A stretch of DNA of 42,368 nt, taken from Desulfohalobiaceae bacterium (GTDB taxonomy: Bacteria > Desulfobacterota > Desulfovibrionia > Desulfovibrionales > Desulfothermaceae). Position 1 is the first letter of the stretch; each line of letters opens with the position of its first letter. This document shows, piece after piece, positions 15,561 to 23,155 of this stretch. The translations under genes were made by a program, and so were the position numbers. The notes beneath the pieces are model-generated. The model was not told the origin of the DNA. It saw only the letters and a list, made by a program, of their open reading frames with translations, and ran no database searches. Where the stretch lies: the NCBI GenBank assembly GCA_021737085.1, contig JAIPEP010000007.1:1-42368 (forward strand), in the 5' to 3' direction.

Positions 15561-15636
15561 TGGAGCGGGTGACGGGACTCGAACCCGCGACAGCAAGCTT
15601 GGGAAGCTTGTACTCTACCAACTGAGTTACACCCGC
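15561..15636 (-). tRNA. tRNA-Gly (anticodon CCC)
   Basis: A 76-base cloverleaf on the minus strand. The acceptor arm GCGGGTG pairs perfectly with CACCCGC, followed by discriminator T and an encoded CCA. The D stem is ACTC/GAGT, and the anticodon stem CAAGC/GCTTG encloses the loop TTCCCAA, so the anticodon is CCC and reads GGG. The T arm is GCGGG/CCCGT with loop TTCGAGT. It lies just downstream of a strong promoter and 97 bases before rimP, so it is probably processed from the same transcript, a layout like the tRNA that precedes rimP-nusA-infB in E. coli. Confidence 0.97.
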
Positions 15637-15649
15637 TCGAAACAGAATA

Positions 15650-15678
15650 ATTATGCCCACAAAAAGGGGGCTTGTCAA
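15650..15678 (-). promoter_or_regulatory. Sigma-70 promoter of tRNA-Gly and the rimP-pnp operon
   Basis: On the minus strand TTGACA (15673-15678) is separated by exactly 17 bases from CATAAT (15650-15655). Transcription would start near 15643, seven bases before the mature tRNA 5' end. The perfect -35 box, ideal spacing and position make this the main promoter of the translation operon. Confidence 0.8.
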
Positions 15679-15755
15679 GGGAGGAAGGCTGGAGAGTCGC
15701 GACCATGCGGAACAAGATCAATAAGCCTTTGTCAGGTAAGTTATTTTGTTCATTA

Positions 15756-16043
15756 GTAATTATTCACCACTTCTCTGGCCTCGAAGTAATCTTCAAGGGG
15801 GCCTTTTTGAATCAATTCTCCGGAGACTCTGTTCGATTTTCTTCGCTCGCCACGTGGGGGAAACCCGGCACTCACTTTTTTTGGAAGTTCAACACCCCAC
15901 GAGCAGGTATCAATCAAAAGTGAGTGCCGGGTGGGGGCAGGGATGCCCCCGCGTGGCGAGCGTTAGACAATCCAGAGTCGAAGGTGCGAGATGAAAAAAG
16001 GCCCCCTTGAAGATTACGATTTCACAAGACGCTGAATAGTTAC
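15756..16043. mobile_element. IS66-type MITE, 288 bp, with 8-bp target duplication
   Basis: The element begins GTAATTATTCACC and ends with the complement of GTAACTATTCAGC. Both ends therefore start GTAA, the hallmark of IS66-family ends. It is flanked on both sides by the identical 8-mer GTTCATTA (15748-15755 and 16044-16051), and 8-bp duplications are also characteristic of IS66. The interior is almost one long palindrome: GTAATCTTCAAGGGGGCCTT near the left end (from about 15790) is repeated inverted near the right end, then GACTCTG, CGCTCGCCACG, and CCCGGCACTCACTTTT arms lead to a central loop at about 15880-15915. It has no transposase frame, so it must have been moved by an enzyme supplied in trans. 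The perfect duplication suggests a fairly recent insertion. Confidence 0.85.
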
Positions 16044-16120
16044 GTTCATTATAGTAAATCAAACATCCTGATATTGCGTTGCTTATCCAAAACTCGGGAG
16101 GTTATCTGACAATTTGTTCC

Positions 16121-16149
16121 TTGACTTTGGGAGATACAGGCATTATTCT
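16121..16149 (+). promoter_or_regulatory. Sigma-70 promoter of ferredoxin-metV pair
   Basis: TTGACT (16121-16126), a 17-base spacer, and TATTCT (16144-16149). The predicted start lies about 60 bases before the ATG at 16217. It lies outside the mobile element, about 80 bases from its right end. Confidence 0.6.
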
Positions 16150-22611: not shown

Positions 22612-23155
22612 GCTGGGGATACCGCCGTGAGGGAGCTCTTTTGCTTTCTATCCTCGGGGACGCCGCAGGAGCCTTCTGGAGGATATCATTATTTGTCTAG
22701 CGCCTGAAAGGTAGCGGGTAAGAGGTGAAAACACAAGCCCGCGCTCAACAAATGGCTTGGCAGTGCCGAAAAAAAAATATCGTAACTGTTCACCAAATCA
22801 TTAATTCAGCGTAAGCCTGCCCCAGGCGCGAAGCGACTCTGTAGGGAACGCCGCAGCGGAGCGCTACAGCCGGACATGCCCCGGTATCAGCATGGCGGCT
22901 CAGCCGGATGCACACTGTAAGTGGTGACACAACATACCTTGTCTGTTATTTTTATTGTCTGGTCGGTCCTGCCTGCACAGCACAGAGGCGCAGCCCTGGA
23001 AAATCCTGCTTCTGGCAGGTCAGCTTCGCTGCAGGGGACAGGGCGAGTCTGGCCTAACAAATTTAGCAAAGAACTGAACAGATAAGCATCCTCCTAAAAA
23101 AATTTTTTCGAGGGTCTTTTCATCCACGGCCAACTGAATAACACAAGGAGCTGAT
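22612..23155. other. Divergent gap between CLC and MscS genes
   Basis: 544 bases without a recognised gene. GTAACTGTTCACC at 22782-22794 resembles the left end of the IS66-type element at 15756, but no matching partner end or target duplication was found. A loose inverted repeat CTGTAG...CTACAG lies at about 22840-22870. An A/T tract (A7T6) is at about 23096-23108, shortly before mscS. Confidence 0.5.

Follow-up and report, generated by a model that had tools for sequence, protein, structure and literature searches.

The 288-bp palindrome at positions 15756-16043 of the window (by which we mean the whole 42,368-nucleotide stretch of Desulfohalobiaceae DNA that was analysed) is, we believe with considerable confidence, a non-autonomous IS66-type MITE that carries a conserved palindromic passenger core together with remnants of a second GTAA-type terminus. 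By themselves, IS66-type MITEs are ordinary. What is uncommon is that one core, near-invariant in short segments, occurs in elements that, judging from their ends and target duplications (TSDs), need different transposases.

The element has GTAA at both ends and is self-complementary over nearly its entire length. A perfect 8-bp TSD, GTTCATTA, brackets it (15748-15755 and 16044-16051), and the list of open reading frames contains no transposase frame within the 288 bp. When the element was aligned with its own reverse complement, 204 of the 288 positions matched, whereas 100 base-shuffled versions averaged 156 matches and never exceeded 171; the predicted RNA fold has an energy of -146.5 kcal/mol (z = -11.4 for the plus strand and -11.3 for the minus strand). 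The ends, the duplication, the missing transposase frame and the self-complementarity, which an earlier note made from the sequence alone had claimed, are confirmed. The two ends, GTAATTATTCACCA on the left and GTAACTATTCAGCG on the right (read inwards), are identical at 11 of 14 positions and belong to the outer arms of IS66 type (T1) at 15756-15785 (plus strand) and 16018-16043 (minus strand). Immediately inside them lie the inner arms: the left one (GTAATCTTCAAGGGGGCC..., 15786-15813, plus strand) is homologous to a GTAATCC-type (T2) terminus and is part of a 28-nt inverted repeat, pairing with the right one at 15990-16017 (minus strand). The outer IS66-type ends make up only about 60 bp of the element; the rest consists of the inner arms and the core (15825-15979, plus strand), which is common to MITEs with different ends. 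This core has the stems GACTCTG/CAGAGTC and CGCTCGCCACG/CGTGGCGAGCG, followed by a three-way-junction-like fold, and it is matched by our covariance model R1 at 15827-15977 (E=7e-17). In the predicted plus-strand fold, the enclosing stem pairs CGCTCGCCACG (15844-15854) with CGTGGCGAGCG (15952-15962), the conserved segment GGGGGAAA (15856-15863) is mostly unpaired, and a conserved hairpin, GGGGGCAGGGATGCCCCC, occupies 15933-15950. The apical module (15863-15932, plus strand) is of the 95-class (GGCACTCAC...GTGAGTGCC) with arms at 15863-15879 and 15916-15932; other copies have two alternative modules at this place.

With respect to its neighbours, the element lies between two divergent promoters, as the earlier note had described. 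That of the tRNA-Gly/rimP-nusA-infB operon (TTGACA-17-CATAAT, 15650-15678, minus strand) is outside the element; the -35 box begins at 15678, at a distance of 70 bp from the left TSD copy and 78 bp from the element, and the tRNA-Gly gene occupies 15561-15636 of the minus strand. On the other side, a plus-strand promoter-like site begins at 16121. Since both promoters are directed away from the element, neither of them transcribes it. The insertion between these promoters is probably neutral or mildly modulating for expression, and an effect on the promoter or on the translation operon is possible, if unproven. In any case, a mobile element from a family that was probably active recently has inserted into, and so altered, the spacer upstream of tRNA-Gly/rimP-nusA-infB. 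Elsewhere in the window there is a second, truncated IS66-type end (22782-22810, GTAACTGTTCACCAAATCATTAATTCAGCGTAAGCCTG); the vicinity contains no right end to match it, and its arm recurs at two positions of a host contig (G000:C167:7566 and 20977).

Further copies, for which the earlier note had proposed a search, are numerous. The host assembly (G000; 2.36 Mb in 178 contigs, 89% complete) contains about 17 full or contig-truncated copies that share the ends of the window element: the window copy itself, one at 94% identity, further full-length ones with 74-83% identity, and several that a contig end interrupts. Two pairs of these interrupted copies show no difference over the sequence available, which implies that the family was probably active recently. 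Among the copies collected from several genomes, IS66-type ends are accompanied by a perfect 8-bp TSD at 10 distinct sites and by one with 1-2 mismatches at three more. Moreover, the congener G001 is without the element at the orthologues of five host copies (those on contigs C97, C11, C82, C22 and C5; about 985 kb compared with flanks). Empty orthologous sites of the kind envisaged in the earlier note were therefore found for these other host copies, in intergenic DNA too diverged for a base-precise junction; the G001 sequence searched for an empty site of the window copy includes neither rimP nor nusA, and no orthologue of the window spacer was met there. Short, gene-less, with inverted-repeat ends and a TSD, and dispersed in copies that have independent TSDs, the window element has the marks of a MITE, including, at these G001 orthologues of other host copies, insertion polymorphism between relatives. 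Two side observations came from the same comparison. Three pairs of host and G001 loci (L032/L314, L063/L312 and L073/L318) are 99.5-100% identical, against about 70-90% at other orthologous loci; this points to cross-binning of contigs in one of the two metagenome assemblies. Two other dispersed repeats of about 125 bp, outside the IS66-type MITE family, have many copies in G001 (left flank of L023, query 785-913; right flank of L024, query 68-192).

To which transposase do the outer ends belong? The sister genus G003 has a complete IS66 element of 1,727 bp (G003:C102:7985-9711, the same as L184:1986-3712; PF03050, E=1e-44) whose gene is bracketed by inverted GTAACTATTCA[G/C]CA ends, GTAACTATTCAGCA and GTAACTATTCACCA, 1,727 bp apart; this end pattern was found independently of the gene. 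Each window end matches one of these at 13 of 14 positions, the left outer arm the right end GTAACTATTCACCA and the right outer arm the left end GTAACTATTCAGCA. One could nevertheless suppose that the ends belong to a non-IS66 transposase family that shares GTAA ends and an 8-bp TSD by coincidence. No PF03050 match was obtained in either the host or G001, an absence that carries little weight at 89% and 53% completeness, and the IS66 family has been described as having inverted repeats of 20-30 bp that start with GTAAGCG, along with 8-bp direct repeats (PMC11946415), whereas the window ends read GTAAC and GTAAT. However, the G003 IS66 deviates from that consensus in the same way, with only GTAA in common, and our claim is consequently for the ends of that particular IS66 and not for the published consensus. 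With a complete transposase gene between such closely matching ends, and a reversed control of the end pattern that finds no match in the host, coincidence seems to us very unlikely. On the sequence level, the assignment of the ends to IS66 is well supported by the GTAA start, the 8-bp TSD (10 perfect) and, in the sister genus though not in the host, ends of this kind that enclose an IS66 transposase gene; the enzymology is what we infer from this. The G003 IS66 copy has no clear target duplication of its own, and these GTAACTATTCA ends were not seen with the PF03050 fragments of G004. The IS66 relatives L210 and L211, from another family of the order, were rejected as partners: GTAACTATTCA ends are absent, within 3 mismatches, at the right places around the gene. 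In favour of the earlier note, which had proposed a non-autonomous IS66-type derivative, are the copies with their own TSDs, the empty sites in G001 and the G003 IS66; the note's expectation of an IS66 with the same ends holds for the sister genus, though not for the host. A lack of other copies, a lack of any matching IS66, or old shared sites, which it had named as telling against it, were not encountered.

Where that note has to be amended is in having treated the palindrome as part of the IS66 derivative. This is true of the outer ends, but the palindrome itself is a separate core that is common to ISL3-like, IS630-like and second GTAA-type MITEs as well. In Blast comparisons the shorter host copies share only the inside of the window element, and their ends differ. 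One such type has GTAATCC-type (T2) ends, GTAATCCTTCACGGGG, with an 8-bp TSD (six perfect). Another has TAGTG[T/C]..TGTCCG ends in a CTAG context, with inner arms homologous to T2; ends of this sort in a CTAG context resemble an IS630 insertion. The IS630 genes (PF13358) of the host, G001 and G007 have no TAGTG ends and were rejected as partners, and the IS630-like label is given from end sequence and CTAG context only. In G004, the core is within ISL3-like elements with ends of the GGCTCTTCG type (GGCTCTTCGACAC..GTCGAAGAACC) and an 8-bp TSD (six perfect); that genome has 168 ISL3-like MITE ends (GGCTCTTCGACACA) with at most one mismatch, and its ISL3 transposase fragments have an end of their own, GGCTCCTCACAC, similar to but different from those of the MITEs. 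G005, G007 and G009 have the core in a further context (GAAACTTCA...) whose outer boundary could not be fixed. In all, the core is recognisable by a double signature, TTTTCTT..GGGGGAAACC and GGGGGCAGGGAT..TTAGAAAA, between which there is one of three alternative apical modules (spacing of about 118, 95 or 64 nt); which module is present is independent of the type of end.

The distribution of the core is narrow. When 84,980 species genomes were scanned for the pattern, almost all matches fell in Desulfohalobiaceae. The covariance model, run on 150 genomes of the order, matched five, each of them from the host's family, with filters strict enough to miss known copies in G005 and G007. DNA-pattern matches outside the family (for example L091, L105, L130, L145 and L157, with L155 also among them) were discarded, as they either have no left arm or look like chance matches; L157 consists of tandem repeats of about 84 bp that contain GGGGGCAGGGAT and are probably unrelated to the core. 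The plasmid collection searched gave no match, and our literature searches, in open-access papers, met with no description of this core-bearing MITE family. Other kinds of partner or identity were considered as well. A transposase-like gene beside a half core in the host (G000:C78, L069) is not an autonomous partner: it belongs to a multi-ORF element of IS481-like type, which meets the core with its own terminus (..TTTTTAT), and the core does not flank a relative of it in G004 (L083); the element is hence an insertion. This element (L069:3482-4725 in the host, L083 on G004:C56) has three genes, encoding a 348-aa integrase-like protein, a 120-aa protein and a second, 483-aa integrase-like protein; in L069 the remnant adjoins the half core at the core's hairpin. 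Another half core (L035, G000:C5, about 44200-44280) is truncated directly before a gene whose product starts like the small subunit of 3-isopropylmalate dehydratase. An integron attC-like site was suggested by the GTTAGA that adjoins the stem, but the consensus GTTAGAA misfits GTTRRRY and, on inspection, there is no other attC feature.

How did one core come to lie within such different ends? A more specific version of our explanation would make the core, with its GTAATCC-type ends, the primary transposable unit and would derive the IS66-type, ISL3-like and IS630-like elements from its independent insertion into other small MITEs. Stand-alone GTAATCC-type copies do exist with an 8-bp TSD, short core-less outer elements exist too, and T2-homologous inner arms are found inside the TAGTG-type elements. 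In copy L062, an outer TSD (GGGAATTC/GGGAATTC) surrounds an inner element, GTAAGCC..GGCTTAC, that has a 7/8 duplication of its own (GCTGAACT/GCTGAATT), as expected if one MITE had inserted in another. Most composites, however, have no recognisable inner duplication, an autonomous partner with GTAATCC ends was not found, and several of the core-less forms look like deletions of the palindrome centre of a composite. As the nested reading depends on this one 7/8 duplication, with none at the other junctions, the core may equally well have been captured through end exchange or gene conversion, and we would give insertion of a primary unit a serious but somewhat less than even chance. The core-less forms are instructive in their own right: those of IS66 type measure 77-79 bp and have their own TSDs (AAGCCGGG, ACCGAGTC, GAACGTTG and CATTCCGC, among others), and those of the ISL3-like type measure 79-81 bp, also with TSDs of their own (ATACTTTT, TATAAATA and ATTTTGAC). 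The core is therefore dispensable for transposition and readily lost, being optional in at least two of the MITE types that carry it.

Considering how well parts of the core are conserved, it would be natural to think of it as a structured non-coding RNA gene or a cis-acting RNA under selection, with the MITEs as its vehicles. Unpaired or loop segments (GGGGGAAA, CAGGGAT and TTAGAAAA) are strongly conserved across four genera, the 118-class apical module is near-constant in length while its sequence varies, and in the RNAalifold prediction (enclosing stem, apical stem and side hairpin) 25 of the 50 predicted core pairs have two-sided changes. Yet nothing in these data favours one strand over the other. 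In a hand-made structure G-U cells number 18 and A-C cells 17, part of each being due to alignment shift, and such a balance is what one expects of a palindrome that is kept or repaired as DNA. Orientation is random: of the core copies with codirectional genes on either side, 17 are sense and 18 antisense, and a crude gene call places only 4 of 85 copies within an ORF. Folding z-scores do not distinguish the two strands, an Rfam search matched no family, core-less copies spread too, and in the window the two flanking promoters point away from the element. A G-U excess over A-C and an orientation bias, the signature of a strand-specific RNA, were thus both missing; the results speak against the core acting as a strand-specific RNA, and we consider the RNA explanation improbable, though less so than a coincidence of ends. 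The RNA-hairpin or regulatory role suggested by the earlier note likewise gained no evidence. The strong conservation of the short segments is not accounted for by these results; it may reflect recognition of folded DNA or, instead, simply recent common descent plus homogenisation.

The passenger reading can then be put as follows. An IS66-family DDE transposase would recognise the outer ends in trans and insert the element with an 8-bp duplication, the TSDs and ends being observed and the transposase step presumed from them. Between outer ends that together make up about 60 bp lies the core, flanked by the remnants of the second GTAA-type terminus and carried likewise by several MITE families with unrelated ends. 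Most likely it is a palindromic passenger, an older MITE that newer ones captured or that came to be nested in them. Transposition does not need it, and it has been lost again and again, probably when the palindrome collapsed. More speculatively, and we are inclined to doubt it, a compact palindromic module, made up of a conserved three-way-junction-like core and apical parts that can be swapped, might move from one MITE family to another and so change its transposase (IS66-, ISL3- or IS630-type ends), a parasite of parasites that is possibly kept because a host factor recognises the folded DNA or RNA. In either case the core offers a natural system for asking whether passengers capture new ends, what conserves them, and how bacterial genomes can retain large palindromes.

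Compared with known elements, the window element resembles the IS66 family in its single-ORF DDE_Tnp_IS66 form (the G003 element) by its inverted GTAACTATTCA[G/C]CA ends, GTAA start and, among the MITE copies, 8-bp TSD, but it is gene-less and its interior beyond the ends is unlike that of the IS66. With the ISL3-like MITEs of G004 (GGCTCTTCGACACA ends) it shares the core and an 8-bp TSD, and these too have core-less versions (about 79 bp), whereas their ends are unrelated to IS66. The bacterial MITEs MITEPsy1 and MITEPsy2 (PMC3189936) are similarly gene-less, short and dispersed, with inverted-repeat ends that match an autonomous element by which they are presumably mobilised in trans, and the same likenesses hold for the TIMEs, Tn3-derived inverted-repeat miniature elements (PMC4133298). 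What sets the present family apart from both is that one palindromic core is common to several unrelated types of end and that its apical module is exchangeable.
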